From positions 1,476,997-1,527,736 of the forward strand of contig WELB01000001.1 in assembly GCA_009602725.1 (NCBI GenBank): 50,740 nucleotides of DNA, given 5' to 3'. Each line of letters starts with the position of its first letter. Position 1 is the first letter of the stretch. This DNA is from Spirogloea muscicola (lineage: Eukaryota; Streptophyta; Zygnematophyceae; Spirogloeales; Spirogloeaceae). Shown in pieces: positions 411 through 30,735 of the stretch. The notes beneath the pieces are model-generated. The model had not been told where the DNA came from and ran no database searches. It was given only the letters and a program-made list of their open reading frames with translations. Position numbers and translations under genes: made by a program.

Positions 411-656
411 GCGGGTCAATCTACTGTAGGTTATGTAGGTCTTAAGATGTGCGTGCCTTTGTACTTGGCCATTTGGCCTTCGTTTGTTTCAAATACACGA
501 TATCTCCCTGACGAGGCCACACGGCTCGAATCGCTCAAAAAAGCCTCGAATAGAAGCCGAAAAGCCCTCAGGCCCGCTCTGAGTGGGATGACCCACCCTG
601 ACGGGCGAAGGCGGGTACCGGCCAAGCTAGCGGCGGGTAAAGGTGTAAGGGGGGGG

Positions 657-788
657 GATAGCAATCCCAGGCTACACTGGCCTTGGAAAGCGTGGGTATT
701 AAGAGATGAAGGGCCTGTGTGGCCAAGTAAGGGATTAAGGGTGGAGGTGGAGAGCAGCGATAGCAGTCTCAGGCTACACTGGCCTTGG
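657..788. repeat. 30-bp direct repeat flanking a LINE 3'-UTR scrap
   Basis: A 30-base unit (core GGCTACACTGGCCTTGG) occurs at 657-686 and again at 759-788 with about three mismatches. Between them, 696-729 matches the LINE 3' UTR in minus orientation (compare 10,237-10,270). The surrounding stretch 480-1,600 otherwise contains short unrecognised repeats and no convincing gene. Confidence 0.6.
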
Positions 789-1238
789 GCTTGAGGGTGA
801 AGGGTGGAGCCAAATAGGCCAAAGAGCCTGCTCCATAATCAATGCCATTCTTTCTGACCGGCATAGGCGAGCGGAGGGCTGGCTTCCCGAGCAGTTCTAC
901 TCAGTCCAGTCTCCTTCCCTGAGCCGATTCGCCCGCCTCCTCCGCCGCTGTCGTCGTCGCTCCCGCCGTTGCCGCCGCCACCGCTGAAAGATCAGCGGGC
1001 ATCGAGCGCGCATTGGCCGTGCCAAGAAAGCACGGGTAGGCGTGAAGGTCTGGATCTGCTGTTTGAGGAGCCTTCTGCCGGAGAACTCCGTCAACCGGTA
1101 CGTGAACCGGTGCATTGGCAAGGCACGCTTGTTTTGCTCGAAAGTTTTGTCTCAGAAATCTGAATCGTTTAGTCAGCATTATTTAAAGGTATCATCTAAC
1201 AGAAGTTGCGTTGTGTGCATCTTTGCAAGTACTAAGTA

Positions 1239-1290
1239 AAGTCCCGAATAGGGCACGTAGAGATACTGTGACGCAAGTCCCGAATAGGGC
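1239..1290. repeat. 16-bp direct repeat, spacing 36 bp
   Basis: AAGTCCCGAATAGGGC occurs exactly at 1239-1254 and 1275-1290. It lies upstream of the Gypsy internal region. It could belong to a degraded leader or 5' LTR, but no matching 3' LTR sequence was found. Confidence 0.6.
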
Positions 1291-1637
1291 GAACCTTCTT
1301 ACCGGCACTTTACACATTTGCTTACCTTGCACTGAGATGATTGGTGACAGTGCCCGAGACCCTACGTGGCCATTAATTAATTACTTTCGGATACAGTTCA
1401 TTGCACTGCTGTTGACTGCTTGTTGTTTTCCAACCCACTTCTTTACTGGACCGAGTAGAACTGCGGAAAACGGGGACACGTTTAAGCAAATTGCAGGTCT
1501 CTACATCTAACTTCGGGTGCTGTATGCTCGTTCTGCTCTAGACTCGGTCATACAGACTCCCACTGCTGGCAGAAACACCCTAGAAAATTACCCGTCTCCA
1601 TGAAGGAAAATATGGTCAAGAAAGGGTTTCTAGTCAG

Positions 1638-1961
1638 GTGGCACAGTCGTCCGGGTCCTCTCCTTCAAAAATCGATCAAATGACAAAACAGATTCAGGAA
1701 TTAACTAAACAATTGGCAGTTGCCAAGGCGCAGACAAAGTCTAAGATAGTCTCGACTGCGTTGCCTTATTCAGATCAGCAGGAGGATGAGGATACTTACA
1801 CAGGACAGCACAATCCCCACAATCCCGATGGGTATGATGCTCATCACCGTTATGCTTATACAGCATTTCTGCCCAGTCGTAATCCTCTAAAGCGAGGGGA
1901 AACGAAATGCAGCAAAGTGTCAGGTCTGGTAACTTTCGGTACCCGGCGAGTTTTCAGTTGA
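1638..1961 (+). pseudogene. N-terminal (gag-proximal) remnant of the Gypsy polyprotein
   Basis: This frame encodes about 107 residues. It starts with a Ser-rich segment, then a heptad-like Gln/Lys stretch (around IDQMTKQIQELTKQL) that looks like a short coiled coil, then a Gln/Asp-rich segment. No CCHC knuckle or capsid signature is visible. Assignment to gag rests only on position upstream of the protease. Confidence 0.35.
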
Positions 1962-2295
1962 AGGATATCAAAGCCGACAGCCTACCTCGCCGCGTTAAGC
2001 CCGTGTTACCCAAGCCAGTTATTGAGACAGTTCCAACGAATTGTTCTGTGTCGACTGATAAACTACTGAATAGGATGTATTCCACCCCTATTCTAAGCAT
2101 CAAAGACCTTGGCATGGCAAAGGCACAGTGGCACAGTTGAGGGAATACATACAAGCCTCCGATAGTCGTAATCAAATAGTCACAGGGCGAGTGATCAACT
2201 CGCCTGCAGTGATGACCACAGCAGTCTCAAAATCTTTGGCTGTTGACAAGATTTCATGCAGGCCACCGATTGCAGGAACCGAGTAGCTAGCTGCT

Positions 2296-2691
2296 GTGGC
2301 CATGCTGGAAAATTCAGAAGGAGCCATCCAGGTCTCCAACAGAAATGCAATAGAGGCACCTATCCATGTCCTTCTGGACACAGGTGCACAACCCATCCTG
2401 GTTGGTTCTCGCTTTGCTAAGTTGCTGGAAATCGAGAAGGATGAGATGCTATGTAACAAGGTCCGGATCACCACAGCAACTGGTACTACAGATAACGTGG
2501 TTGGAGTCAAACGCCCGTTGCATATCCCCTTCAATTATCAGGATCCTGCTAAGCATACATCCTTTTCGGCCATATGCATGATAACAAAAGCCACAACATA
2601 TGATATAATATTGGGTACTGAGACTTTAATACGCTTAGGTTTTGGACTAGACTACTACTCTGAAGTGGCCTGGTACAGACCTCAATGGTAG
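2296..2691 (+). pseudogene. Retropepsin-like aspartic protease domain of the Gypsy element
   Basis: The catalytic motif appears as LLDTGAQPILV (about residues 25-35 of this frame). The second conserved strand, YDIILGTETLIRLG, is the usual C-terminal hydrophobic-Gly signature of retroelement proteases. The domain cleaves the retrotransposon polyprotein and is active as a dimer in its family. It precedes the linker and methyltransferase, as expected for a pol polyprotein. The frame breaks at both ends, so this is a relic although the active-site triad DTG is intact. Confidence 0.8.
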
Positions 2692-2780
2692 AATTTAGGT
2701 ACCACAAGGGTCATCTTACCTCTACTGATGGGGTGGAGATCGAATTAATATGAGCTAATATATCAGCTAATACTTGTATC

Positions 2781-3464
2781 GTGATTGTGGATTCAGCTGA
2801 ACATGAACCAGTAACTCCAGAGGAGCTTTCCTCCGCTCAAGAGAAGGACGTTCCTACAGACCAGAAGGCCATCGATGACTTTGTAGAGGCGGAGGAGACA
2901 TTCACCGATCAGCAGAAGGATGAGATTGAAGATTCTGCAAAACTTCCTCAACAGGATAACAAGGGTAAAGGGCCTCAGGAAGATGTGCCTGTTGTACCAG
3001 AACCCAACAAAGTTCGGGACATGGTGGTGTATGGGCAAGCCCAAGGTGAGTCATCACAGTCTTCGATGCGTGCCAAGAGGCCTTTGCAGATAGTTCCCCT
3101 TGATCCAGACCAGGCCAATCACCAGACAGGCCGCATACGTCCCGTGCCCAACATGGGTATATCGCGCACCTACATGAAAGATTTGCAGGTTGCCAAGAAC
3201 CATGAGATGGTCAAGGCGTCACGTCTGTGTTTTCCTGTGGTGGGCCACATGCAAGCTGAAGAAGCGTGGACCGAAGACACCCTGACAGCACAGCCCCCAA
3301 TAGTACACTCAAATGCTGGCAGCGAATTCGTGGATCGGCTGGGGGTATTCTACCACGGTGTCGTGACTGAGTTTGCCTCCAGAGGGCATTGTATTAGTGG
3401 AGTTGCTTGGCGGCACCGCAAATGGTTTGAAAGCAGCATGTCAAAGCCACATCAAGGTGGCTAG
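2781..3464 (+). pseudogene. Acidic linker between protease and methyltransferase
   Basis: An open frame of 227 codons. The first about 100 residues are Glu/Asp/Gln-rich and low in hydrophobics, typical of a flexible linker. From about residue 110 the sequence looks folded and probably forms the N-terminal flank of the methyltransferase. The frame stops matching near 3360, where methyltransferase motif I continues in another frame, so a frameshift separates them. I recognise no domain in the acidic part. Confidence 0.5.
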
Positions 3465-4432
3465 ATATATTTCTACATTGACATCGATGATGAAGCTCGT
3501 CAAACTGCGCAACACCACATCGACTATCTGCTCCGCCAACATCCAACCTTGCTCCACCCATCAACGTTTGCGCAGTGGGATACCTTACTCCCACAAGACA
3601 TTACAAAGGCCGCACAGCCAGGAATGTTGCGCCGTCTTCCTTCAGTTGATCTCGTTGTGGCAGGTTTTCCCTGCCAGGGCTTCAGTGCCATTGGCAAAGG
3701 TCTGGGGTTGCTCAAAAGGACACGGCTCTTTTCCAGCCCATGGTGAAATTTATGCATGCGGTGCAGGCAAGACAGACCCGACCAGTGCGTTATATTATTG
3801 AAATGTTGATGTTGAAAATGTTGAATGTTCAAAATGTTGAACCTCGGGAAAATAAACTGACGGCGCGGTTCAGTATTGCGACAGTTTGCGACATCCTTGG
3901 ACCTCATACAATATTAGGTGCAGCCTTTGTTGGTTCGCTTGCAGACTGCAGGCGGGTTCACTGGACGAACTTGGCACCGGCAAAGATGATGCAGATTTGC
4001 ATCAACAACCAATACTGGCCTCCTGGATTATATGCTTATATGGTGCTAGATGCTGGAAGAGAGGTTATGCCAGTGTACGGGTCCAAGCGTGAGCACCACT
4101 TCAATCAGCCAGGTTCAGAACGTGTCACCTTTCCAACTCTTATGGCGACGGTGGACTCCGAGGGTTTCAGATCGCACTATAAAAGGAAAGGACCAGGCAT
4201 GGTTAGGTTGAAGGGTACCAACATCTTCCAGGAACCCTATTCTCGAGAGAGGGAGAGAGCCATGGGATATGAACCCAGGGACATTACTCTACCCCATCAC
4301 TCTTTTAGAACCCATGTCAAACTAACTGGGCAGGCATTCGATGCGAATTCCATGTCTTGGATATTTAGCGTCACAAATGCCATTCAGTCTAAGAGGAAGT
4401 TTAAACGACAGCTTTACAACAATGATCCTTAG
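3370..4432 (+). pseudogene. Cytosine-5 DNA methyltransferase domain inside the Gypsy polyprotein
   Basis: The domain would transfer methyl from S-adenosylmethionine to cytosine in DNA. Motif I is near 3385-3425 (GIVLVELLGG, the SAM loop), followed after a frameshift near 3465 by an acidic strand containing IDIDDEA. Motif IV, with the catalytic cysteine, is GFPCQGFSAIGKG, Cys codon 3672-3674. Motif VI (ENV) is split near 3800-3845. A later block containing CRRVHWTNL (about 3950-3975) resembles the motif VIII region of DRM/DNMT3-type enzymes. The C-terminal block near 4250-4380 (RERERAMGY, then SMSWIF) resembles the end of such enzymes. Three reading frames are needed, so this copy is broken. 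The DRM/DNMT3-like affinity is inference; the PCQ and SAM motifs are seen. Confidence 0.8.
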
Positions 4433-4639
4433 AGCGTTTCATCTTTAGACATCAGTCTTCTGAAATTGTTTGATCCTGGTGTTGATAAAAATGAGGACTT
4501 CTGACGATCACAGCCTATCAGGAAAGTTTGCCATTCTTTACTTGGGTACCAGTGGCAGCTTGGTCCCGATCTGTCTGCAGAAATGAATTTCTGTACGGTT
4601 AGGTTGTTAAATGTTAAACTTACCTCTTTTGCTTTCTCA

Positions 4640-5475
4640 TCGGCTGATTTGGGTACTTATACTGGTTCCAAGTTTCATATTCAGCTTAGAGATGAACGTC
4701 CGATGTTCAGTCAACAGTATCCATTATCTAAGGTTGAAAATGACTTCATAGATAACAAACGCCAAGAATTGCTTTGATACAATCATCCAACAGTTCCTTT
4801 GCTGCCCCCACAATTCTCCTGGCCAAGAAAGATGAAATTGGCAATTACACAGATAGGAGAATGTGTGGTGATTATTGTCGACTCAATCCGTCCACACCTC
4901 TCGATCGATATCCTATGCCTACCCCCAAAGAGATTTTTGCCTGTGTGGGGGACAGCAAGATCTTTTCAGTGTTAGATCTTAGGCAAGGATTTAACCAAAT
5001 CGATATTGAGCCTGGAGACAGGCATAAGACCGCTTTCTGGGGGGTCCGTGAAGGTGTTGGAGATCGTTATGAATGATATAGAATGCCATTCGGTCTCAAA
5101 ATGGCTCCCATCATGTTTCAACGTGTCATGGACATGGTATTGAGACATGTTCCATTTGCACGGTGTTACATCGCCGACAATTTAGTGTTCAGAGAGAATT
5201 TTGCAGAACACTTGAATTATGTTGCAGTTGTGCTTGATACCATACAGCAGGCTGGACTCAGATGTCACCCAGGAAAATGCTGTTTTGGCTTGTCTGAAGC
5301 TACCTATTTGGGTCACCAGATTTCAAACAAGGGTCTGCCCCCACAAGCTGCCAATGTGCAAGCTATTCTTGACATTCCTCCGCCAACTAATCTTGAATCG
5401 TTGCGATCTTTCCTTTGCTTGGCTAGTTATAATCGAAGATTCGTCCAGAATTCAGTTCCATCGCTAGGCCTCTGA
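4640..5475 (+). pseudogene. Reverse transcriptase domain of the Gypsy element
   Basis: The palm and fingers are recognisable: FHIQLRDERPMFSQQYPL at the N-terminal edge, a block with MCGDYCRLN, motif A as FSVLDLRQGFNQIDI, and MPFGLKMAPIMFQRVMD. The catalytic YxDD box reads YIADNLVF (5167-5190): the first Asp of the pair is Ala. Stop codons occur at the frame change near 4775 and in frame at 5074-5076, directly before the MPFGL block. The thumb follows with YLGHQIS. This domain copied the element RNA in the family; this copy cannot. Confidence 0.9.
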
Positions 5476-5499
5476 ATGATTTGCTCAAGAAAGTTGCAT

Positions 5500-5961
5500 C
5501 ATGGCAGTGGACTACTTCTCGTCACCAAGCATTCAGCTTAAACAGGCTCTCACTCAAGCTCCAGTTCTGCGACATCCCGATGATACCAAACAATTGTAAT
5601 TGCATACAGGTTGGAGCAAAGTGGGGATGGGTGCTGTTTTGACTCAGCGTGATGAGGACAACCATCAACATTTTATCGCTTGTGCGAGTTGCAGTAACAA
5701 TTCTGCACAGCAAGATTATTCTGCATATCATGGGAACGCTTGGCTGCCATGTGGGCCATCACACATTTCCGACCGTACCTACATCATTACTGATCATCAG
5801 CCTTTACAATGGTTGTTAACAACTGATAAAGTCACAGGAAAGTTAGCACGCTGGGCTCTTCAACTGCAAGAGTATGATTTCAAAATTGTTCATCGTCCTG
5901 GTCTTCAAAATATGGATGCTGATGCTCTCAGTCGAAATCCAACTTCCGATGCTATTTCTTA
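5500..5961 (+). pseudogene. RNase H domain of the Gypsy element
   Basis: The frame holds HTGWSKVGMGAVLTQ, TDHQPLQWLL and the closing HRPGLQNMDADALSR, the standard end of Gypsy RNase H. The first catalytic residue, Asp in the usual HTD motif, is Gly here (about 5605-5610), and a TAA interrupts the frame just before it. The later Asp of TDHQ is kept. It ends at TAA around 5962, after which no chromatin or integrase zinc finger (HHCC) is visible. Confidence 0.85.
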
Positions 5962-6433
5962 ACAATTTGCTCACATGATCATTTGTCATGAACCCATGAT
6001 TCACTGTCGATTGGCCCATGCTCTTACGACCTCTACACATGCTGATCATTCAGTAGGCGCTCTTGAAGTGTCTAATGATTATGATGAGGTAAATTACACC
6101 TTGCGACGCGCTTTCTTGGGCTTTCTCGGTCTATGATTGAGGGCCTCTCTTTTGTGTGGTGTGGGTGGCAAGATGGCACTGCTCACTGGTCAGAAATTGG
6201 GGTGGGGAGACATCTAAATCAGCAGCAGTGCCCTAGACACCAGATAATCGCAACTACCATACCGTACGTGTCGTTCTATAATATGCAAAGTAAAACCAAA
6301 ATATCGCAAGATTTCTTATACGCTTTGTTTGGTTCGGCTCTGCCCAACACAGGCTGATTTGTCGACTACTTCTATGCTATTCCAATTATCGACGTTATCT
6401 GGCAGCCGACATCATATGGCCGACAGTCCGTGT

Positions 6434-6460
6434 AAATTAGGGGGTGGAGTGTGTAGGGGA
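6434..6460 (+). other. Possible polypurine tract and 3' LTR start
   Basis: A purine-rich run ending GGGGTGGAG is followed at 6450 by TGTGTAGGGG. A tract of this kind directly before TG is what a Gypsy 3' LTR boundary looks like. No repeat of the following sequence was found upstream of 1,600, so the LTR itself is not shown. Confidence 0.35.
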
Positions 6461-6602
6461 TGAATACAAGGGGCCGCCGCCCTTCTGGACTGCTATGATG
6501 CCCGCTTCCAAGAGCAGCTTCTTCTAGGGTGCGACGTGCCATCGAAGCCAGGATCGCATCCTCGCTTGCTCCGCTCTGTCGTCTGATACCTCTACACAGC
6601 GG

Positions 6603-6791
6603 ACCGTCAACCTAGAATGTGCATTTGGTGGCGTGAAAGAGCATCTTTTGGCGAATGGAGGGCCGCACTTGGATATGGGCAATGTTTTCCTGCGAAAGAG
6701 CTTGCCCGAGGCCCAGTATGCGCCCACGTCATTGCATTGCTGCCAAATCCTCCTGCGTTCGCGTTGGATCTGCGTACTGGCCATACCTTGA
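6603..6791 (+). other. Unassigned 62-codon open frame
   Basis: A frame running to TGA at 6789-6791 has protein-like composition, with segments such as FGGVKEHLLANGG and FLRKSLPEAQYAP. It has no clear start and no family I can name. It lies just past the Gypsy element and before a LINE-like hairpin at 6841, so a fragment of another transposon is the likeliest explanation. Confidence 0.3.
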
Positions 6792-9790
6792 CTGCCGCCT
6801 TCATTTACAGCGGCACAATTCTTTGTTCATTTCCACTTTCGGCTGGCTTTTCACAGCCCTCGCCCCCTTTGGATGAGCTTACTTCCTTGCTGCGAGTTGT
6901 TCCTACATATGCCTGTTGTATGCTAAAGAAAGATAGAAAGGAAGTGCTAAGAGATCATCTGTGGCAGCCACTGGTTGTGCTAGCGATTGTCCTATCCAGT
7001 TGGGGCCCTCGTTGGCGTTCTGTCCAATCTTGCAGCTGGCACTTCCCAGTCACCGCCCTCCTGGAAGAGCTAGCTCTCTCTGCTGTGGCAGAGGTCATAG
7101 CTCATGCGAAGAGGCGGTAGGTCGTGCAGAAGCTCACGCCCACGCTTTCTGCAAGGACTAGCGTGCAAACCCGCCCCCATCCCACAGCCGCCTTACCTGC
7201 AATACCTTGTCTGCAGACCGTGACCTGCCGTGACATGCCGTGTGGAGCTTGTACGACCATGTGAGCTCGTGAGAACTCTGAGCTTCTATTTGCTTGACAA
7301 GAGACTCGATGTCAAGGTCAAGAAAGATGCGTACTGGGATCATGACTTTAGTATGCCGCTAAGCTTCTTCTATTGGCAAGCCAACCGTTGCTGTAGTGAC
7401 CCGACCCCTACAAAGGCAAAGAGGCGGTCTGGTCCTGATTGGTTTTGGACGCGGGGATTTACGAGCAAACCCCTACACCGTGAAGCACCTTGCGCATCAG
7501 CGCGCAGCAGAAGTCTTGCCTTATGGCGCCGCCGTCAGTCGGCGTCTCCACCTCCCGATCACCAACTCGCAGCTAGAGAGAAGTGCTCGCTCATAGAGAA
7601 TAGGGGCCGGGCACGGGCAGCCCAAAAAGAATGAACAAAGTGCGAAAGGGCCAGGAGAAGCGCCAAAGCTAGCACATTGGACTCAAGCAGCTACGAAACT
7701 CCGAGCTAGCCCTCCAAGGGCCGGCCATGGACGCCTTGCAGCGAGCCGGCAGCGGCCTGCCGGCGACGGGCTGCAGCAGCAGGCGCAGCAGCCGGGCTGC
7801 GCCTCTCTCTGGGCTTCACTGATCCGAACTGCTGTCTGTGACTCTGACCCCAGACTCCTAGTGCTCCCCGGTGCCGCCGCCCTTGTCGTGCGATATCCCG
7901 TCGGTGGCTCATTGGTTGACGGTGCTGACAAGGATGCGGAGGTGGCTGCTTACGTGCCATCCGAGGGTGCGTCATTCCTCAATCTGGTGTGAAGGTGGGG
8001 TCGCGAGCGCGGCATCTCCAACCCGCTTCGGTCCAGAAAAGATTTATTTCAATCCGGCTCGGCGTCGGAGCATCATGGCCGGCGTGAGCGCCTACGGGGC
8101 ACGGCAACTGACCACATAGTGAAAGAGAAGCACCTCTGAGCATGTAGCAGTCTAAAAACATTGTGAGGACTACTGGAAGAGAGCAGAGGGCAATTTATCT
8201 GTGCCCATCAAGAAAAACATGATGTTTGTTGGCTTGGGTATCTGCTGGCAACCATGTCTGGTGAAAGTTGTAAAGTCAGGCACGTAGACAGCAATAAGTT
8301 GGAGTTGGCTTGAGTGTCGAGCCCTAGCTTGTCCAACTTGTAGCATGTGACGATAGGGTTTATTGTGATCTCATGGCTAGGTGGCAGCCTGCATTGCTTG
8401 CTGGCTTCGAGACTCAAGGCTGCATGCATTCAAAACTTTCTGCCATAAGTCAGATGCCCAAGGCAGGCCGTTGGCATCTGCCAAAATGGGGATCTCTGGC
8501 ATGCCAAGCACCGCCCCACTTTTCAATTAGCATCATGCAGCATCTTCCACGACTGCGTGACAGTGACCTGGTAAGCGTTGAGGTGGCGGCAGGCCATGGT
8601 TGAGATGTTGACATGACTCGCATCCTACGAAGAGGCACAGAGTCTGCCTGACTTGCCACAATAATGCAAGCTTATTGGGCGTGTGTCATTGGACTGGAAA
8701 GTGGGATTGCCAAGCTACCCTAGCCTAGGAAAAAGGGGGACATTTACCAAGCCTGGCAAGTGATGTACTTGGCTACCTACCAACTACTTGCCGACCACCA
8801 GTCATAAGTGCCGCAAGGCCACAATGCAACCGCATGAAGTCCAGCCTGTTGGTAGACTGGGCCAGATCAAGTCCGTTGCGTCTGAAACAGGAAGGCCCCC
8901 GGTAGTTGCTGCTCAACTGTCCAGGAGTTCTTGTTTGCTCGTGTTTTGGTGTAGCAACTGAACCAGTGCAAGGCTGCAACTTGTGGTTACCAAGGGCATG
9001 TTGACTGCCTGCTGTTTCGCTTAATGACGAGGCTGCTAGGCTGCAAGGCTTTTCCTGTACGTCTTGTTCCCATGCACAAGGAAGCTCCTAAAGTTGAAAT
9101 GAGCATACTCTCTGTCTGACTCAAGCAAGAGCTTGATGTGAGCGACATGAGCTACAGATGTAGCAATGCATCCATCCATGCAAATGGCATCAAAAGTAGA
9201 GTGTTTCACAGGCCCCATGCCTTCGTCGAGTGCCCTTCTGTTCTCCTGACTGGAGCAGTATTCAAGCCTCAGGACCACCTTGTTGGCGCAGATTGGCTGC
9301 AGCGTAAGCAAGGGCAGTCCGGAGCTCGAAGAATCTATCAGAACAGCCATGAATGACTATATAGAACATTAGTGTAGTGAGGCTCTTTGCGGAGTAGGAA
9401 AGGCTCTTTGCTGCCAGCCAAAAAAATGTTGGGCTGGAAAGGTGTCCATCATAGGAGGACAAAGGCGGCTGCCGAGACATTAGAACTCGGACTGAGCTCA
9501 ATAGCCCCTGTTTGACAGCGATTGGAAGGAGGTACTGGGCTCCAATGAGTGGCAGTGCCAGTGAGGGGCCGGCCGAATGTCATATAATCTCAAGTTGGGC
9601 ATGAGCTTGAGCCAGCCAGGAAAGGCGAAGGCCTGATGCAGTACTTGAGAGGAGGCCACTGGTGCATTTCAGCGGCAGCCACCACTTCGCCTGATTCCTG
9701 TTTGCCTGTTTGCTCGTGTTGCTGGCAGTCCCCCTGAAAAGTTGATGGCTATTGCAGAATGAAGCCGTATGGATAGTTTCACTCTACTCG
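6792..9790. other. Gene-free repetitive stretch
   Basis: Short open frames on both strands have no recognisable product and no consistent splice phases. Scraps of the LINE family are visible: the stem-loop GGCTGGCTTTTCACAGCC at 6841-6858, and a stretch near 7620-7680 similar to the reverse complement of 181-220. A short imperfect tandem (CCGTGAC/CCGTGAC/CCGTGTG) sits at 7218-7242. I see no RNA gene. Confidence 0.5.
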
Positions 9791-10115: not shown

Positions 10116-10228
10116 CTAGTGCGGAGTTGGTGCTAGACATTGAAGCGTAGACTGAGAGGGGGGCTAACGTAGAGAAAGCGTTGCTAAGAGGGGGAGATGG
10201 CGTGACGTGAAAAAGCCGGCTGCAGGAA

Positions 10229-10460
10229 AATGTGTGTATTAAGAGATGGGGAGGCCATGTGTGGCCAAGTACAAAGGCAAGCACATTGACAAATGCACGT
10301 CACCTGCTGCTAAGCCGACCCGCTCAGTAACCACGAGTCAGCACATAGAGGTCGCTAACTGATGCTCGAATACCGGATGGCAATCGACAAGCTCTCGGAC
10401 TACCAGCCAAGGCTCGACCAGCTTTCTGATGCAACGCATGAGCCTGAGCTCGCTGCAGGG
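10229..10460 (-). mobile_element. LINE 3' end, truncated copy
   Basis: On the minus strand about 45 codons of the LINE C terminus (signature LHQKAGRALAG, ending SDLYVLTRGY) stop at 10,324-10,326. The 3' UTR follows, with the shared tail ending near 10,229 (CATCTCTTAATACACACATT in that orientation). It lies directly downstream of a longer copy of the same family. Confidence 0.75.
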
Positions 10461-10696
10461 GGGTTCTCAATATGCACGAGTGGTAATATACACGCTCGAC
10501 AGGCTAACTTGGGGAGCCTGAGCACCGCCACAGAAGCGGGTGGCCAAGCTCAGAGCCCAGCACGCCGATGAAGCCCTATAGATTGGGAGGGCTGCGGAGG
10601 GCGGGGAGCGTGCGCCGGCAACTCGCAACTGGCACCTTGCAACGGCGGTCGTAGTAGCTGGCGTGACAACTAGGGAGGGAAGAAAGTGAGCGTGTA

Positions 10697-11865
10697 TGAA
10701 GAGATGGAGGGCCTGTGTGGCCAAGTACAAAGGCAAGCACATTGACAAATGTACGACACCTGCTGCTAAGCTGACCCGCTCAGTAACCACGAGTCAGCAC
10801 ATAGAGGTCGCTAACTGATGCCCGAATACCGGACAGCAATCGACAAGCTCTTGAGCTACCAGCTAAGGCTCGACCAGCTTTCTGATGCAACGCATGAGCC
10901 TGAGCTCGCTGCAGACAAGCTGACACTCGACGTCGCAAGAATGACAAGTAGGCTGCTGGCATGCCCATCGGAGCTGGAAGCATATCCTCACGTCGAGCAT
11001 ATCCCAAATTTGCAATATTCTCCAGTAGGGTATGGAAGCGAGGACCCATGCAGCCGAAAGTGTCAATTGCCGCCGGCAGGAGGTGATCGCTGCGGGGGTA
11101 GTCAGAGTAGTGTCGGAGCTTTCTCTGCTCAGCACCTCCCACTGCGTGGCCAGCAATGTGCGTCGATGCGGAACTCTTGTATGCCTTCGTCCAACCTTTA
11201 CCACCACATCAACCAAGGCTCCTGGGCCTCCGCCAGGTTGTTCACTCACAATGTCCAGGGTGCGACAGTGATGGCGTCCCTGAGAATCCGTGGTGATGGG
11301 CATTATATCTTCCACAATAGCGCGGTAGCCGGCGTCGCGCATCAGGTTCGCGAGGGCGTCCTGTAGGAGATTATGGACGCCCACCACCTCAGGGCCTGTG
11401 AGACACCGCAGCATGTGGGTGGCAAGGTCTCCGCCCTCCGCACGGAAGCCGCACCCACACTGAGTTACTCCAATCAGGCAGGTCGGGGGCAGGCCCAGGA
11501 ACAGCTGGAAAAGCGTCCGATATTCCTCGGGGCTAATTTTGAAATGCTTTATAGATGGCGTGCGTTGTGAGCCAGTCTGTTGCCCCAGGTGTTGCGAGCG
11601 ACGTGAGACGTGCCAGACTCCTTGGATTGGTCCTGATATCTGGCAGCTGAAGGTTCGCGGTGCGCCTGAGATTAAAGCGTGGCCATTCCAAGCCAATACA
11701 TTGTTCAGACGAAAGAATAGCGCAAAGAAAAGGGGCCTTAAGGACCCGTCCTACGTCTACTTCTACAGATTTGGCGCGCGGTGCGCATGAATTAAAAGGG
11801 TGGCCAATCCAAGCCATAACATTGTTCAGGCAACAACTGGTGCAAAAGATGTGAGGTAAGCTCAT
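10697..11865 (-). pseudogene. LINE ORF 3' portion with zinc-finger and endonuclease-like domain
   Basis: Minus strand, three frames are needed: about 11,865-11,560, 11,590-11,130 and 11,142-10,780. The order matches the C-terminal end of algal LINE polyproteins: a segment ending near the RT thumb (TPGATDWLTTHAIYK), SPEEYRTLFQLFLGLP, a CxCG...HxxxC finger (CGCGFRAEGGDLATHMLRC), a basic helix (VHNLLQDALANLMRDAGY), and paired acidic strands (LDIVSE, then VDVVV) resembling a restriction-like endonuclease core. It ends with IDTFGCMGPRFHTLLENIA and a terminal helix. In its family the protein nicks DNA and primes reverse transcription there. This copy lacks the RT core and is frameshifted. Its 3' UTR (10,697-10,779) abuts another copy of the family. 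Confidence 0.75.
11640..11850 (-). repeat. Two tandem repeat-B units
   Basis: Two diverged copies of the 90-bp unit lie in tandem (about 11,640-11,720 and 11,765-11,850), each with CTGAACAATGT-A-TGGCTTG and a downstream GCGCACCGCG in minus orientation. They overlap the LINE frame upstream of the zinc finger, so repeat B may be LINE coding sequence. Confidence 0.55.
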
Positions 11866-15339: not shown

Positions 15340-17097
15340 CAATTATTCTACAACCCATAGGCCTGAAGTGAACAGGTTCTCACCCTTTGCATGACGTATA
15401 TTGGTGTCCTATTAACAATCATGTAAGCAGTAGCAAGCTTGTGCGTACTTGGTCCATGCAGTGGTTACACTCCTCTGTCTCATTGTACTCTACTAGACGA
15501 TCTTTCCACGATTGCACTGACTGTGGCCTGCATATAAGAGAAAGGCAGCTGTCGTGAGGTGCTAGTAGAAGCGTATGTATCATGTATCATGGAGCAGATT
15601 CTAATATCATCACAAGTTGCAAGTGCATCGACAAGTACATCATGCACTGGTTGGTTTCAAGAAGTCCTTATTGTGCATTTGCCTAGTCAGTACTTATTCA
15701 TCCATGCGCCAGGCTTCTATTGAGCTAGTGGGATGGAAATTTTGTAAAGCGTCGTGGAAACTCGAGTAATCTGTCATGAAATGGTCCTGTACCACTTATG
15801 TCAGGCTTCCGAACAGCCTTCGCTTTGCACGTGCCGCCTTTCAAATGCTAAAATCTTAGCGTTCACAATTTGGAAAAAGTTGTGGCGATGCTACCATTGG
15901 CTGTATTCTTGGTCTCTGGACAGGTATTATAGGGGTGGTCAATCTACCACAACCACCCCAGGGACGCCATGTCATGCCTCCGTGTGATCACGAGGCCGCT
16001 AATAACTACATCCATGATGCTCTGAAAATCCCAGCAGTCCAGTACGTGGCACGACGACCTAATCGCTTACACCACACGGCTATGCACGAGGTTACAGCAA
16101 AAAGACGAATGTTCTCTTGGTTACTCAGCTTGAAAAGAAGGCCAGATGAAGCCTCTGTACAGAGTTCAGGCATACACTAGTATGGAGGAGCTACTGGAGG
16201 ACGTCACGTCTCCACGCCAGACCCGCTCGATGGACGATTATCACCGCATGACAAATGCATCACCATGGATGTTGACATTGTAACGTTCTCGCCGTTGGGG
16301 CGTGCTAACGGTGGCAGTAATTTATCCAGTATCGTTTCTTCACCGTTGGGGCGTCGGTGTCGGTAATTCCGCTGCACCCTGTGTAGCTATTCCCGATGTC
16401 GGGTGAGTGAGTCCTGCCGAGGAGGGCCGCTGGGGCTCCCCTCGTCACCCACGCTACTTCGTGTCCCCATTGTTGGGCCCGCACCTCCGAGGGTGGGCCC
16501 TGGGACGACCCTCTTCAACCCCCCCGACTAATGTCCTCTTAGGTACCTTAGATTAGGTCTCCGTATTATGTAGCATTGTTTAGTCTGCACTCGACTCTGC
16601 CTGAACAATGTATTGGCTTGAATTGGCCTCCCTTTCAATTCATGCGCCCCGCGCGCCTTCTCTCCCCCGGGGAGGGGTGGCAGGTGGAACGCTATCAGTA
16701 GAGGGCCGAGGCCAGACTGCTCAGTCGGACCCGTGACGCCGAGAGAGGCACAGCCCTGCTTGCCTGCTGCCGCAGCTGCCGCCACAGCCCTGCTGCTGCC
16801 GTCTGCTGCTCAGCCCGTCGCCACAGCTCGTCGCTGCATCCATCGCCGGCTCGCCGTAAATGCCATGCTTGCGCCACATCTGGAGACAGCTATTAAGCCA
16901 GACCACCAGTAGAGTCGCCGCCTTCCTGTGGTGCTCAGGGTAAGACTTCCGCTGTGCGGTATGCGCGTATGTGTTCTGTGTGCACTGGCGTTTCCACTCT
17001 GTAGGGGGGTAGTCCCTAACCCCCTAGGTCCGAACTCCGATCAGGACGTACTATCCCCTAATTGCATGTCTAGGGCTTAGGACGTTTCAGGCATGCA
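15340..17097. other. Intergenic repetitive DNA
   Basis: After the CAD-like 3' UTR no gene is recognisable. At 16,285-16,370 a unit CCGTTGGGGCGT occurs twice, followed by GTCGGTAAT/GGCAGTAAT variants. GC-rich imperfect inverted repeats lie at 16,390-16,510. Repeat B is at 16,560-16,660. Confidence 0.5.
16560..16665 (+). repeat. Repeat family B copy
   Basis: Starts GTATTATGTAGC, contains CTGCCTGAACAATGTATTGG and ends ATGCGCCCCGCGCGCC. It matches 35,922-36,025 almost base for base, and 11,640-11,850 in reverse complement. Function unknown; a dispersed retroelement fragment is likely. Confidence 0.7.
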
Positions 17098-22874: not shown

Positions 22875-24894
22875 TCAGCCATGTTGCCAGCTGAAGGCAC
22901 TTAGCGCCAGGTGGTATGTGCCAACAAGAGCCGCTGTGCCAGTGCCATGCTGTAGTGCCCGAAGTGCAGTGGCTCGCCAGGGTAGCATCCGGCTCTCAGC
23001 GACAGCTCGTAGGGCCCGTGCCCACCACGGGCCCCCTGCTGCTGGCAATCGCAGCAGCCTCCGCTCCATGGCAATGTGCTGGGTTCACACAACAGAACGG
23101 TGAAGGGTCCATGGCGAGTACTGCAGAAGAGTACTAGCTGCGGAAGACTTGCTACAGAAGGAGGCAAGCACAAAGAATTGCCCACAGTGCATCCTTGGCA
23201 GGCGTTTATAAGGTAAAGCAGTGATGCTGCCAAGCCTCGCACACGGAGGCCAGAGAAAGCAGCTGGACCTTGGGCACTACTGTGAGGTGGTTCCGAATGA
23301 CCGCAGCATCCAGGGGCGCTGTCGCGGTGGCAGCGGCGGCGGCAGCAAGGCCGGCCTCCGCTGTCATCTCCATGGGCGAGGGACCAACGAGTCTGCACAG
23401 GGCAGTGCAGGCACACATGGCAGCTCCTTCCTCAGCTGCTGCAAATGGGTTACGATGCTGCACACCACTGTATTCTGCCAAGGGCGTGTGATCAACTGCT
23501 TAACCCAGACCAATCACCCCCGATGCTTTAACTCCTGAGAGTTTAGTCCTGTACTCCCCAAGTGTTACTGTAATCTCATCCAGCTGTTTCTGGTTGTGGA
23601 GTGCTTACTTACATGGTGTCACGGGTGTTGTGTCGCAAAACCCTGAGCTCGCGTGCGCACTGCTCCAGGTAGGCCCAGCCGCCAAAGAAGACGCCGGCGT
23701 AGAGCGAGTCGTGGAGCGCTGTTGCAGGAAGGCCCCGAAACAGCCGCCCGAGGCCCTCGCCTTGCACGATGGTCGGCACCGCAACGGGCACCGTGTGCGT
23801 GCTGGCACGCCAGTTCAGACACGCTGGCACTGGCAGCGGCCCGGCAAGCTGACGCTGGACTGACGCTGTCGCCTGTGAGCGCAGGTGGGCAGCCATGTCG
23901 AGAAGGGACACCGACGGCTGCGGCGCGACCGGCCGCCCCACCGCAGGCTGCAGCTGCGCCCTGGCATGGAGCAGCCCCGCGGGAGTGGTCACGGCAGCCT
24001 CGGCGGCTCCGGCGAGCAGGCCCGCTAAGAAGGCCGTGCCGGCCATGCGCGGCGAGCCCTCCCTGCCATCTGCACCGAATTGAGCGCGGCTGCTGATATC
24101 AGAAGAGCGGCTGTAAAAGCCATCCAGGTGCACCTAGAGGAAGTTCATGGCTATATCAGCGGAGCCAGAGGAGACAGAGCAGAGTAGAGGCACACGTCTC
24201 AAGCGCCACACTGTTGCTGCATTCGATGGTCAGCGAACGCCCAATACTGCTGCCAGTGGTCATGGCAGGTGGGGTGCTGGCGATGGTGCTGGTCCTAAGA
24301 CGGGCCGCGGCAGGGCGCACCTTCTTGGAAGGACGCAGCGAGCTCGTAAGTGCCGTAGCGGAGCGCCAGCACGGGGCTGCGGGCGAGCAAGTGCAGCGCC
24401 ACGCCGCCGCCGCCGCCGCCGACATTGCCGCCGCCGCCGCCCCCCCTGTGCAGGCCTGGCGGGCCTGGCTATCAGGCCGGAACAATCCTGAGATGGGGGC
24501 CGCCTCCGTCGTCTCAGCGGCCCTTGCCGACGCCATTCCAGCCTTCACGGGGGCCGCTTACCAGCGACGCCCTCGGCGGCGGCAGCCATGGGGCTCGACG
24601 AGGAGGCGGAGGCGGCGGCGACCATGGGGGCCTGCGCTCGCCCATGGAGAAGCCGGCCTCACACATCGTCAGCGCATCGTCAGCCCGTCGGGCAAAGGCG
24701 GCGCCGGCTTCGCCGCCGGCGGCGAGCGAGCGCGACACCTGCAGAAGGCGCATGCGCAGGCCTTCCAGCGGGAGATGCGCTGCGGCCTCGGCGCCCGCGG
24801 CCAGCGCCGCCGCGGNCCGCCGCCGGCGGGGCGAGGGCCGGCGAGGCGCTCCATGGCCGCGCCTCGGGTCTCGGCTGTGAACTAAGCTCTGCAA
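22875..24894 (-). CDS. Mitochondrial carrier family (SLC25-like) transporter
   Basis: A membrane carrier with three repeats of paired helices; substrate unknown; normally in the mitochondrial inner membrane or, in algae, plastids or peroxisomes. Exons on the minus strand: 24894-24562, 24468-24321, 24069-23613, 23467-23281, 23078-22875; all phases close (about 442 residues). Repeat 1 is ALAAGAEAAAHLPLEGLRMR, then ALRYGTYELAASF. Repeat 2 is FLAGLLAGAAEAAVTTPAGL, then LFRGLPATALHDSLYAGVFF. Repeat 3 is GLAAAAAATATAPLDAAVIR, then WRATALRALQHGTGTA. The PxD/E signatures are degenerate except PLE and PLD, so this is a divergent member. The single N at 24,816 lies in exon 1; the start is uncertain (another ATG at 24,853 would fit if N hides an indel). 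Confidence 0.75.
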
Positions 24895-25079
24895 CTTAAC
24901 CCCAATGTCCTAGAGCGAGCGCGACAAGGGGGGGCCTTCGGAGCGCCGCCGCCGCCGCCGCCGCCGCCGCCGATGGAAGCGGCACGGGAAAGACCGAAGA
25001 CGGGAGGCGTCTAGTCGGAGGAAGCAGTCGGCGAGGCGGGCGTCGGACACGGCGGAGGTGGCCAGCTCGAGGCGTGGCG
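24895..25079. promoter_or_regulatory. Divergent promoter of carrier and CELF-like genes
   Basis: Only 185 bp separate the two predicted start codons, so both transcription starts must share this block. It holds an uninterrupted run of about nine GCC units at 24,944-24,972. No TATA box is visible, as expected for GC-rich housekeeping promoters. Confidence 0.6.
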
Positions 25080-28000
25080 ATGGCCAAGCGCAAGGCCGCC
25101 GGGAAGGGGCCCGCCAACGCCAAGAAGGGCAAGAAGAGCGCCGGTTCTGAAGGCGCCGCCGCCGCCGCCGCCGCTGCCGCCGTCGCCGAGGATGAGGCTG
25201 CCGTCGCTGCCGCCGCCATTGCCAGCAATGCCTTAGCCGCTGCCGTTGTCGACGGCGCTGCTGTCGACACCGTGGCCGACGCTGCCGTCAACGCCGCAAT
25301 CTACGCCGCCGCCGCCGACGCCGCCATTGCCGCTGCTGCCGCCGCGCTGGCAGCCGGGGGCACTGCCGCTGGCACAGACACTGTCGCCGGTGCTGCCAAA
25401 ATCGCTCCCAATGACTTCGTCGAGGCCGAGGCTACCACAGTACAGGAGATTGGACCGGAACCCGTCGGCATGGAAGTCGATGTGGCGGCCAGCAACATCG
25501 ATGGCGGCAAGGGTGGTACCGGCAACGGCAGCGGCCATGTCCTGCAGCGTGCGAGCGGAAACAGAGGCCCCATCGCCGAGACAGAGGTTGATGCTCTTGT
25601 ACAGTCGTGTGATGCCTCTGAAGCTGGTCAGGCTGCTGTCGAAGCGGCACTGGTGGCCGCCGGGGCTGCGACCGCGGCAGCCGAGGTTGCGGATGCGAAT
25701 GCCGAGGTCGCGCAGCCAGAGGTCAGCAAGGGCGCCGAAGGTGCTACTGCCGCAGAAGCCGACGGTGTCGTTGAGGTCGCTGCTGCCAGCTCCAACGAAG
25801 TAAATGGAGGCGTTCAGGGGGCAGTAAGTGGTGAGGCCGACGGCACCGCCAGAGAAGCAGGCGATGGCGTGAAGGCCGCCGGCAACTCTTGCAAGCTCTT
25901 TGTGGGACAGCTGCCAAGGGCCATGACTGGTGAGGCGGTGCGGGAGCTCTTCTCTGTGGCCGGCGATGTCACTGATGTGGCTATTATCCGGGACCGCGTG
26001 ACGCAGAAGCCCCGAGGTGAGAAAGGAGCGAGTCGACATGAACAAGAAGCGAGCGGCAACTTGTCTGCATGCGACCGCTGTGCTTGCTTGCGGTCAAGGA
26101 CGAGCTTGGCTCGCTCAATGTCTGAGCGGGACCAGCTGACTCTAGTTTGGAGCTGCCGCTGTATTTCTCTTCGCTCTGCTTGCAGGCTGCTGTTTTGTCA
26201 CGTTCAGTATGCCCGAGAACGCGGCCAGGGCCATTGAGCTGCTCCATGCCAAGCGCACGCTTCCGCCGGTGAGGTTATCTTCGCAAATGCTTTTCTATCT
26301 TGCAGGTCTCATCCCAAGATGAGAGAGACTGTGCATGCACATGCTCGTCAGCTGCAGCTCCGCTCCTGACAGCTGATCGAGTGGAGACATCGGCCATCGA
26401 GTCTGTCAAGATGCGAGACCCTGCGGCCCTTTGTGTCCCCCGTTTTGCGTTCATCAAGCAAGAGTGCTTGAGTTGGACTGACAGGACGCCGCAGGGCTTC
26501 CTTCTCATGTCTGCATGCCCAGCTGACAAGGCCCCTTCAAGTCAAGTATGCCAACACGCGTGCAACGCCTGGGCCGCACCCAGCAAGGGAGGACCACTTA
26601 CACATAAGCCGAGGTCAGCTCAATCTCGGTTTTACTCCTCGCTCCTGCAGGGGGTGGCAGTTACGGCGGTAGCCAGTGATGACCAGTTGGTGACTAGACT
26701 GCTCGTTGATGTGCACCACAGGGCAGCAGCGCCGCTTGTACCTCAGCAACTTGCCAGATGTGACCGGGCAGGATAAGCTGCAGGAGCTTCTGGCACAGTA
26801 CGGGGCAGTCAAGGACCTAGTCATCAAGAAGAGCCAAAAGGCTGGGCACCGCAGTGAGCTACACTGTAGCCAAGCCCGCCAAAACCTGTGCGCGTCTCTT
26901 TTAACTGTCAGAGCTTTCTTGACTGCCTACTTGCAAGATTCAGTATCATGGTTTCTAGGTGAAACCAAGAATTTTGATTTAGTGGCTTATAGCTATACAA
27001 GAGGCAGCTGATCACCCTGCGAGGGGGTTTGCGATCTGCTGCAGCATTTGCTTTAGTATCCTACTCAACAGAGGAGGAAGCACAGGCTGCCATTGATGGC
27101 CTCAACAGCAAGCACGTCTTTGAGGCAAGCGTTTACCTGGTTATCGTCCAGCATGATTTGCTTTGGGTTGTACTGCTGTGCGTTTTGGGCACACGGCAGA
27201 CTCGCTCTGCATTGCACACATATTCCTTACATTGCTTGTGGTATCACGTCTTCTTGGGCTCCCGCCGGACTGGACCAGGGAGCCGTGAAGCCCATGCTCG
27301 TGAGGCACGCCACAGAGGAAAGGGCGAGACGGCTGGACGAGGGGAGGGGCCTTGGCAGCAGCCCAGTAGCCAAGCAGCGGCCAGGCTATGATGGGTCCGG
27401 CGGCTGGCGGCCACAATTCCGGCCGCTGGGCACCCATCACCCCTCCCAGGTACAAGCAGTCTTGAGGAAGCTACTTGATCAGCCCTGGTGAGATGAAGCA
27501 ATAGCCATTTGGGATTTTCAGATCAGGATTTAGGGATGTAGGGACGTTTGAGTTCTGGGCACTTGAGTCGAAGACTTCGTGGATGGGCAACCGAGCAGGC
27601 CTCTCCCTCACCTCGCATGTGCTTCCTGTCATCGCCACTTTCCTTCATCAGAATAATAGCATGCTACCAAGTGCATCATACCCCAGCGTTGTACAGGCGT
27701 TGACGCTGGAGGGCGGCCCACTTCCAGCAGCTTGGGTGGTGGAGCACCTTCCAGATGGCACACCAGTCTTCTTCCCAGTGCACACCGCCGCCATCAACCC
27801 TCCAGCCTTTCCCCAATTTCCTCTTGCTCCTCTCGGCCCTGCTCCTTTTGTCTACGGAGCTCCCAAGGGTGCCTACGCTGGGCCACCGCCATTTCTGGCT
27901 CCTAACGAATTTATGCCAGAGCCACCTTCTTCAGATGGCTATGCAGCACAACGACCCCCAGCTGCGCCTCATGTGGAAGGTGAGCTTAAAGATAGAGTGC

Positions 28001-28827: not shown

Positions 28828-29220
28828 CACTTGTGAGTGCTACTGGCGATTAGCCTGCCTAACTGCAGGCTCCACACAGCCTGGCAGCTCTGCTAATCAT
28901 TTATACCTGGATTGCGGGCTTCTGCTCGAGCATTGTGCAGACTAGCATTTAAAATCTACAACACAGTTCGCAGGGGCAAATAAGAGAAGCAACTTGTGCA
29001 ACTATAGATAATGCTATAATCTTGCGCGCCTGTGATAGAAGATGGATGATGTATCAAATTCCTGACGTCGACTGCCACGAGCATTACTTGAAGCCGGATC
29101 GGCGCAAATTCTTCAATCGCACGACCGTGAGTCTTGAACTAGATTATTTTTGCAAGTTCGAATAATTCCAAAAATATGACAGCTTGTGACATCTAGTCAC
29201 CAGAAGTCATGAAGTCAGTG
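28828..29220. other. Convergent 3' intergenic region
   Basis: AT-richer than its neighbours, with no open frame of note. It holds the 3' UTRs of the CELF-like (+) and TLC (-) genes. A TGTAA overlaps the stop codon of the TLC gene on the minus strand. Confidence 0.5.
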
Positions 29221-30056
29221 TTACAAGGTCTTCTGGATCTTGGGAGGATGTCTCCGCAAGACGTCGGGCCAGAGCCTGGCCACCCACGCGGCGCTGCCAG
29301 CGATGGCAAGCCACGACATGGCCATCCAGCAGGCAGAGAGCCAGGGGGGGATGACGGCGTCCGCCTTGCCTGACATGTAGAAGCTCTGCAGAAACCACAC
29401 GCCGATAGGGCAGGCGACTAGCCTGACGAGCGTGTAGATGACCACGAAGGGGAGGGTGAGGGCCTCGTAGAGCGCGCGCGCACCACTCGAGCCGCGCGCG
29501 CTCGCCATCTTGGCGATCGTCCACACGTTCTGCAGCGGGTTGGTGACCTCGCCCAGGAACACGAGCGCCACCACCGACATGGCTCCATGGCCTGCACGAC
29601 ACTCGGCCAGAGAGGGAAGAGATGATGATGGCGGCCCCGCGGGATGGTAGCGGCGGCGCTCTGGCCACAGCATACTCGCTGTTCATTTGTTCTCGAAATG
29701 TGGATTGCAGGGGGGACGGACCTGTGTAGTAGCGGCAGGAGAGGAGGTAGGCGAGCGTCACGGCGTGATGGGCGATGAAGTGGAGGTCGTCGCGCGCGGC
29801 GGCGAGGAGGTGCGCCATGTCGGCCGCGAAGTAGGCGATGCTGAACTCCATGACTGCGCGCTCGTGGGCGCTGTTGGGCGCCGCCAGCGCCAGCGGCGAC
29901 GCCGCGAGGTGGCGCGCGCAGAGTGCCGAGGAGACGGCGCCGTGCAGCAGTGAGATGGCGCAGCTGGCCGCCTCGCACCGCTGCCGGCCGCGCCACGACC
30001 CGAACGGCCCCGCATACGCCGCGCCGTACGTCGCCGCGAACAGCGCCGCCGACGCC
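29221..30056 (-). CDS. TLC-domain (TRAM/LAG1/CLN8) membrane protein, 5' end missing
   Basis: A multi-span membrane protein resembling TMEM56/TLCD4; TLC proteins include ceramide synthases and lipid-handling factors of ER and endosomes. Exons on the minus strand: 30056 (gap edge) to 29722 and 29591-29221; the junction codon is Gly and phases close. Hydrophobic segments recur (AISLLHGAVSSAL, MEFSIAYFAADMAHLLA, HHAVTLAYLLSC, SVVALVFLGEV, LPFVVIYTLVRLVACPIGVW, WMAMSWLAIAGSAAWVA). The pattern DxHFIAHHAVTL is the family's central histidine motif. The C terminus ends in a Lys-rich tail. The N-terminal part lies in the 168-base gap. No acyltransferase-specific Lag motif is seen, so ceramide synthase is less likely. 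Confidence 0.8.
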
Positions 30057-30224
30057 NNNNNNNNNNNNNNNNNNNNNNNNNNNNNNNNNNNNNNNNNNNN
30101 NNNNNNNNNNNNNNNNNNNNNNNNNNNNNNNNNNNNNNNNNNNNNNNNNNNNNNNNNNNNNNNNNNNNNNNNNNNNNNNNNNNNNNNNNNNNNNNNNNNN
30201 NNNNNNNNNNNNNNNNNNNNNNNN
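30057..30224. other. Assembly gap (168 N)
   Basis: A run of N interrupts the 5' part of the TLC gene; beyond it the sequence is LINE-derived. Frames running through it are not real. Confidence 0.99.
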
Positions 30225-30735
30225 AAAACAAAGCAGCTACTAACCACTCAGTAACCCCTGCTAAGCAGGCGCAGGTCGGAGAGGCTATGCTCCTGGAAGT
30301 ATGTCCCCTGGCCAGAGCCAGAGGCAGCAGCAAGGGCTCGGCCAGCACGCAGGTGCAGCGCACGGGCCATGGACCTCTGCAGCGAGACGGCCAGGCGCAT
30401 GCGATACACCTGGGCCAACGACCCGGCGGCGGGGAAGTCCACCGGCTCCCCATGGAAGCGGCGGGCAACGGCGTGACGAGCAAGTTGGTGGAGAGAGGAG
30501 CCCACAAGCAAGCCCTGCCTTTCCTCCAGACCTTCCTGAACCCTGAACCCTCGGCCAAGTGGACGGGGACACCTTCCGGCTCCCGTGAGCGCCAGCGTGG
30601 CCGGTGACGGTGGCCGCCCAGCAGGAAGCTGGCCATCGGAAACAGCGCTTCCATATTGACAGAAGCGGCTGTGAGAGGCCAGCCCAAAGGAATGGATGGA
30701 CAAGGTCTGCAAAGGCCGGATGGCGCAAAAAGCAA
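30225..30735 (-). pseudogene. LINE ORF C-terminal fragment
   Basis: Minus strand: the frame ends at 30,248-30,250 (signature LRAGRALAAASGSGQGTY, ending DLRLLSRGY) and runs up through AAGSLAQVYRMRLAVSLQRS. A frame change lies further upstream. The reverse complement of the LINE hairpin is at 30,667-30,684. It matches 12,085-12,295 across about 60 residues. Confidence 0.7.

Follow-up and report, generated by a model that had tools for sequence, protein, structure and literature searches.

The window analysed here, a 50,740-nucleotide stretch of a streptophyte genome, carries at ~524-8,076 a decayed Ty3/Gypsy retrotransposon with a DNMT3-like cytosine-5 DNA methyltransferase (MTase) between its protease and its reverse transcriptase (RT). 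Piecewise reading with Pfam profiles places protease, MTase, RT and ribonuclease H (RNase H) in that order on the + strand, and other genomic copies aligned back along the window (tblastn) give the same order, with gag in front. A sequence-only reading of this DNA had proposed a Ty3/Gypsy element with its own cytosine-5 MTase, from DTGAQ, PCQ and WTNL motifs, RT and RNase H on one strand; the piecewise reading, the profiles and the cross-copy alignment bear this out. It had also described a 3.7-kb unit at 2,296-5,961. The domain order of that unit holds; the unit runs through several frames with internal stops, and the element extends beyond it on both sides.

All element features in the window lie on the + strand. 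Remnants of the 5' long terminal repeat (LTR) end and leader occupy 524..990 and match by blastn the 5' LTR and leader of a copy on contig C341 (L029), with 75% identity over 524-687 and 68% over 766-990. Gag remnants, including the zinc-knuckle region, follow at 1459..2128 as pieces in several frames, 32-76% identical to the gag of copies L022, L029 and L032; the N-terminal part of gag was not found in the window copy by tblastn with the same three queries. The retropepsin (DTGAQP) spans 2227..2736, where the PF13975 match (7.1e-5, frame piece 2287-2691) falls below the curated cut-off and identity to L029 is 64% over 2374-2736. The MTase, at 3135..4429, is broken; PF00145 matches 3465-3746 above the cut-off (1.4e-6), and identity to other copies is 33-52%. 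Its tblastn homology to those copies runs over 3135-4498, with a stop codon at 4430-4432. By direct reading, motif IV with the catalytic cysteine (GFPCQGFS) lies at 3663..3686 and a WTNL block of the motif VIII region at 3962..3973, the WTNL columns being invariant in 12/12 rows of an alignment of element MTases (A1).

A TGA at 4502..4504, located by anchoring on the RT N-terminus in a comparison of 23 copies, is homologous to a stop codon conserved between MTase and RT, and directly after it CGATCA (4505-4510) is recognisable from the junction comparison as a decayed CARYYA. The RT (4511..5451; PF00078 1.2e-12 on 5077-5472; pieces of 45-70% identity to other copies) is interrupted by stops and a frame change, and its active site reads YIAD, not YIDD. 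RNase H follows at 5534..6079 (PF17917 6.9e-18; 58% identity to both L022 and L029), and an LTR-like stretch at 7883..8076, 69-70% identical to both LTRs of the C341 copy, is probably a remnant of the 3' LTR. Alignment of other copies along the window gave no integrase match in the window copy. From the RNase H remnant to the LTR-like stretch (6079-7883) run ~1.8 kb of replaced or scrambled sequence, empty of integrase matches and of Pfam matches in the two frames tested. In the list of open reading frames (ORFs) the MTase is split over three frames, holding motif I, the PCQ motif and the ENV-WTNL half, and in A1 its ENV motif is split by ten extra residues, with IIE at 3794-3802. Because of the several frames, the ENV insertion, the YIAD site, the internal stops and the integrase that was not found, the window copy is a dead member of its lineage. 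Scans of the window for tRNAs, tandem repeats and Rfam families were all empty.

The genome searched comprises 153.1 Mb in 471 contigs. The PF00145 profile has 71 matches in it, some of which resemble exons of ordinary host DNMT genes. The MTase of L022, used as a query in a search that scored 107 of 281 candidates and thus yields lower bounds, gave at least 110 matches merging to at least 89 places on at least 55 contigs; these places include fragments and are not a count of elements. Six of the 110 matches cover at least 370 of the 385 residues without a stop. Twenty loci of ~10 kb were fetched, picked from the PF00145 matches mainly by their long frames, and ten of them (L021, L022, L024-L027, L029, L031, L032 and L035, the last with a partial protease match) have protease, MTase and RT one after another on a single strand. 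The position between protease and RT given by the sequence-only reading is therefore that of other copies too, and the further copies it had proposed to look for exist. Gag, MTase and RT were matched in L030, where the protease was without a match; L023 keeps its integrase, its RT being unmatched; and L040, the locus without any element match, is probably an ordinary DNMT gene.

In L022 both frames are open. ORF1 encodes 1,411 amino acids in the order Gag (zinc knuckle), protease and MTase, the zinc-knuckle and protease Pfam matches falling below the curated cut-offs, and after a single in-frame TAG ORF2 encodes 1,037 amino acids with RT, RNase H, integrase and a PHD finger. The integrase of ORF2 matches PF17921 (H2C2, 6e-14) and PF00665 (rve core, 2.8e-11); integrase was also matched in L023, L025 and L032, and zinc knuckle and MTase share one frame in L021, L023 and L024 as well. 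The C341 copy has direct LTRs of ~300 bp (16766-17066 and 25262-25561) that are 98.3% identical, the one clear pair among 15 loci scanned, next to shorter pairs in L028 (165 columns, 83%) and L021 (58 columns, 83%); the copy on contig C2 is flanked by direct repeats of 82-90% identity. The Pfam assignments, together with the order Gag, protease, RT, RNase H and integrase, point to Ty3/Gypsy. Loci L038 and L039 (contigs C66 and C91) hold inverted and tandem MTase fragments, a layout that insertion of one copy into another, or recombination between copies, could have produced.

The MTase accompanies a single RT lineage. In a sample of RT matches, with counts that hold among the matches listed, 33 of the 49 merged RT places with at least 49% identity (59 matches) have an MTase on the same strand no more than 3.5 kb upstream, compared with none of the first 60 listed Gypsy-type RT matches of at most 42% identity. 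In the best preserved pairs purifying selection acts on the MTase, as estimated by the Nei-Gojobori method: the ratio of nonsynonymous to synonymous substitution rates (dN/dS) is 0.13 for L021-L025 (376 codons) and 0.18 for L022-L030 (385 codons), while the RT of the same pairs gives 0.09 (318 codons) and 0.32 (334 codons), respectively. Trees of 14 MTase and 15 RT sequences are largely congruent, sharing the groups L022+L030, L021+L025, L012+L014+L024, L026+L032 and L027+window, and MTase and RT distances are correlated (Spearman 0.77, 91 pairs).

The sequence-only reading would have been refuted if its segment at 3,370-4,430 aligned only to an unrelated family. The family of this segment matches cytosine-5 MTases, and DNMT3A is the best match both by profile and by fold, so that DNMT3 is the closest characterised family for the element MTase as judged by these comparisons. 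Alignment A1 has 12 rows; where the others show motif IV, its window row has a chance stretch read in a different frame. A1 served as the query for a second protein search, a viral contig search and the profile comparison with DNMT3A and DRM2. In it, motifs I, IV, VI, VIII and X follow each other in unpermuted order; the motif IV cysteine is present in 11/11 rows with in-frame coverage of it, and 12/12 rows have both ENV and the arginine of motif VIII, ENV being split in the window row by its insertion. The earlier guess of a DRM/DNMT3-like enzyme stands in its second half and falls in its first: DRM, the rearranged plant de novo MTase, is ruled out because motif I precedes IV, VI, VIII and X without circular permutation. 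Of the DRM2 chains, the C-terminal end alone aligns, to the first half of the A1 profile.

A stop codon in a particular context separates MTase and RT in most of the copies compared. The junction was placed in 26 copies by anchoring on the RT N-terminus, and exclusion of three that align only from further in (L031, L051 and L059) left 23. In these the junction codon is TAG in 15, TGA in 5, TAA in none and another codon in 3, which makes a stop in 20/23, and the six bases that follow are CAATTA (9), CAATCA (8), CAACCA (3), CAACTA (1), CAACGA (1) and CGATCA (1), so that CARYYA stands directly after the junction codon in 21/23. The second codon of the hexamer specifies Leu in 10 copies, Ser in 9, Pro in 3 and Arg in 1, and nevertheless 23/23 have A as its third base; codons of the form YYA make up 386 of 1,494 Leu, Pro and Ser codons in eight open frames of such copies, and the third positions of the codons flanking the junction vary. 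ORF2 begins directly after the stop in the frame of ORF1. PMC3542737, in the part that deals with it, describes CARYYA following a stop as the signal for type I readthrough in tobamoviruses and several further plant viruses, effective also on UGA and UAA. We conclude that the stop and its hexamer form a putative type I readthrough signal. Such a conserved, leaky-type stop predicts that the MTase would be made at the level of Gag, and RT and integrase only by readthrough. A reassigned host stop codon was considered and rejected, as all three stops are absent from the interior of the two long L022 frames and the junction has TAG in some copies and TGA in others.

The PHD finger after the integrase (8621-8815 in L022) recurs in L023, L027, L029, L032 and L035, and is interrupted in L030; it is possibly a histone-guided targeting module. 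Our literature search, outside of which lay subscription papers and supplements, returned no description of a PHD finger or of a conserved readthrough-type stop in MTase-bearing elements, and it returned nothing on CARYYA in retrotransposons or on PHD fingers in algal Gypsy elements. Three papers do mention stop-codon readthrough along with Gypsy, gag and pol, and we make no claim of novelty for readthrough in Gypsy elements in general.

Relatives occur in environmental sequences. Protein searches returned 7 metagenomic proteins and then, with A1, 38, the weaker of which include bacterial enzymes by name (P0040 and P0042). One protein, P0015, joins a protease (PF13650 2e-4, just below the cut-off) to an MTase. 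Eight relatives were compared with one copy from each clade of the genome and a second from the clade of the window: P0009, P0010, P0013 and P0015 align over both the protease region and the MTase, and P0002, P0003 and P0009-P0013 are nearest to the third clade (41-54% to L028), from which P0015 departs by identity, at 33% to L028 across 446 columns and 41% to L029 across shorter pieces. Ten relatives reach well past the MTase and have similar tails (P0001-P0004, P0006 and P0008-P0012), and because these ends agree we take them to be probable stop codons. One relative is labelled as a protein of a Candidatus Obscuribacterales metagenome-assembled genome, which is probably a binning error. In the viral contig search 21 stretches matched the pattern and none of them encoded a relative. 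Several lineages in one genome, together with environmental relatives, suggest an old and stable arrangement.

That a Gypsy element can carry a DNMT3-type MTase is already known. The main text of de Mendoza et al. 2018 (PMC5890265) describes KnitGypsy-Dnmt3 in Klebsormidium nitens and, in Symbiodinium, DIRS and LINE elements that bear DNMTs, in agreement with the capture of such enzymes in a few algae and dinoflagellates that the sequence-only reading mentioned. It also reports that DNMTs of retrotransposons methylate CG de novo. A 2025 paper (PMC12344493) places DNMT3 in retrotransposons of streptophytes and dinoflagellates, with Copia and DIRS named in the part that concerns us. A dedicated literature search for MTase domains in streptophyte LTR elements returned nothing. 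By its published main-text description, KnitGypsy-Dnmt3 resembles the present elements as an LTR Gypsy of a streptophyte alga whose DNMT3-type MTase is intronless, unrearranged and subject to purifying selection. It would differ in that its MTase is described inside the Pol polyprotein ORF and not, as here, upstream of a conserved stop before the RT, in a DIRS-like repeat structure where one of our copies has ordinary direct LTRs, and in the PHD finger found here after the integrase; neither 'readthrough' nor 'PHD' appears in that main text. In two protein searches no match was named as the K. nitens element, most matches being nameless. SymbioDIRS-Dnmt3 and SymbioLINE-Dnmt are likewise retrotransposon-encoded cytosine-5 MTases, of the Dnmt3 type in the DIRS elements, but by the same description they are DIRS (tyrosine recombinase) or LINE elements, unlike a Gypsy with a DDE-type integrase. 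The closest likeness at the stop is to type I readthrough in tobamoviruses and benyviruses (UAG CAR YYA), with the same hexamer directly after the stop and the benyvirus-listed UAG CAA UUA present in several of our copies (PMC3542737, in its account of these viruses); the differences are that the signal here lies in a retrotransposon, between MTase and RT, that TGA is used in 5/23, and that readthrough is here predicted from sequence.

We consider the following account probable. A Ty3/Gypsy lineage of a streptophyte, probably an alga, already had the MTase among its regular domains when its three present clades separated, and has kept it. ORF1 encodes Gag, protease and MTase and ends at a TAG or TGA in CARYYA context, and a minority of ribosomes would read through, adding RT, RNase H, integrase and the C-terminal PHD finger. 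The MTase would be made and packaged at the level of Gag, and inside the particle would most likely methylate the double-stranded cDNA of the element itself, prior to integration, so that new copies would enter the genome already methylated; the PHD finger would probably steer integration via a histone mark. More tentatively, and at somewhat less than an even chance, we suggest that production at the Gag level makes this a DNA-methylating particle, with RT, integrase and PHD finger coming from the readthrough minority, in which the epigenetic state of a copy is set at insertion. The observations add to the few reports of retrotransposons with a captured DNA methyltransferase and attach to them a testable mechanism. 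If the leaky stop does place the MTase at the Gag level, the enzyme is meant for the particle, every particle would contain a methylation writer and have a chromatin reader on its integrase, and the question why an element methylates DNA would become an experimental one, addressed by looking for 5-methylcytosine in cDNA before integration and for the need for it.

Several results weigh against this account. Both frames are whole in one copy, and a clear LTR pair was seen in another, of the 20 loci; inspection by eye found no clear target-site duplication where the LTRs of the C341 copy end, and no tRNA primer-binding site was established. L029, L027 and L028 have gag in one frame and protease-MTase in another, which we read as decay. 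Of the 18 stretches fetched for the junction, four (L045, L046, L055 and L058) gave no placement, and many copies are decayed. The 23 junctions share descent, so no p-value is attached to them. No MTase match accompanies 16 of the 49 related RT places, in one of which, when inspected, a run of N covers the place where the MTase would lie. Several other close pairs, mostly decayed pieces, have dN/dS of 0.3-0.8, and for some close MTase pairs the ratio is 0.5-0.8. The trees conflict inside the clade of the window, where the RT joins L026+L032 with L027+window (98/98) and the MTase instead places L027+window with L029 and L035 (86/89), and the L022 clade is weakly supported in the RT tree (40/95). 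A single-sequence query put M.HhaI above DNMT3A (30.5 vs 24.9 bits), and P0013 ends earlier than the other relatives and differently.

The strongest alternative, which we think unlikely, puts the target of the MTase in trans: the host genome, whose silencing it would alter, or rival elements, which it would silence, and not the element's own cDNA. Synthesis at the Gag level makes an excess of enzyme plausible, and the Gypsy-type elements that lack an MTase beside their RT (0/60) are possible rivals; nothing tested points to such action, however, and the MTase shares its frame with Gag and protease, which favours packaging. The methylome of K. nitens is moreover described as plant-like despite such elements in the main text of PMC5890265. 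It is improbable that the MTase has lost methylation and is kept as a nucleic-acid-binding or structural accessory of Gag. The residue after the catalytic cysteine does vary among copies (Q, E or G in A1, L021-L029; N in DNMT3A) and a large distance separates the family from characterised DNMT3 enzymes, but the full conservation of the motif IV cysteine, ENV and the motif VIII arginine noted above, and the low dN/dS of the two best pairs, speak for an enzyme.

We give a similarly low probability to expression of the two frames by reinitiation or from separate RNAs, with the stop context kept for some other reason or merely inherited. The copies do share ancestry, and readthrough is our interpretation of their sequence; against this, ORF2 follows directly in the same frame, UAG and UGA are both used with no TAA in 23, the hexamer persists through shifts of the encoded residue between Leu, Ser and Pro, and TAGCAATCA stands at the corresponding place in the clade C copy L031, where the local frame is disturbed and differs. 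A chance MTase insertion in one dead retrotransposon, or an artefact of unrelated neighbouring remnants, as the dead, multi-frame window copy taken by itself might suggest, is rejected as having next to no probability in view of the many same-order copies, the purifying selection, the largely congruent MTase and RT trees and the metagenomic protease-MTase fusion.

Elsewhere in the window, a 256-nt unit occurs at 10203-10914 in two direct copies with 87% identity and a spacing of 456 nt, adjoined by a 295-aa open frame on the - strand (10863-11750) that is empty in Pfam. An alanine-rich open frame at 24900-26237, ending in a partial RNA recognition motif (PF00076 3e-6) and surrounded by DNA of 69% GC (24001-26000), is probably a host gene exon, and a TLC-domain exon (TRAM_LAG1_CLN8, 1.1e-5) on the - strand at 29207-30247 probably belongs to a host gene as well. 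In the genome at large, host-type DNMT exons lie outside the elements at three similar places (C256, C168 and C234). An LHCII protein encoded in the genome matched, in a structure search, first a multi-domain LHCI chain and next the chlorophyll-binding chains 7xqp, 8htu and 8c29, which come from moss and spruce; the large subunit of RuBisCO was not found in the assembly. A streptophyte genome in triplicate would fit Spirogloea muscicola, for which the relevant part of PMC7994812 describes a genome triplication. Exons of the RNA polymerase largest subunit were found in threes on different contigs (C173/C71/C32 and C360/C59/C210), and also as one pair (C73/C113) and as single matches on three further contigs.

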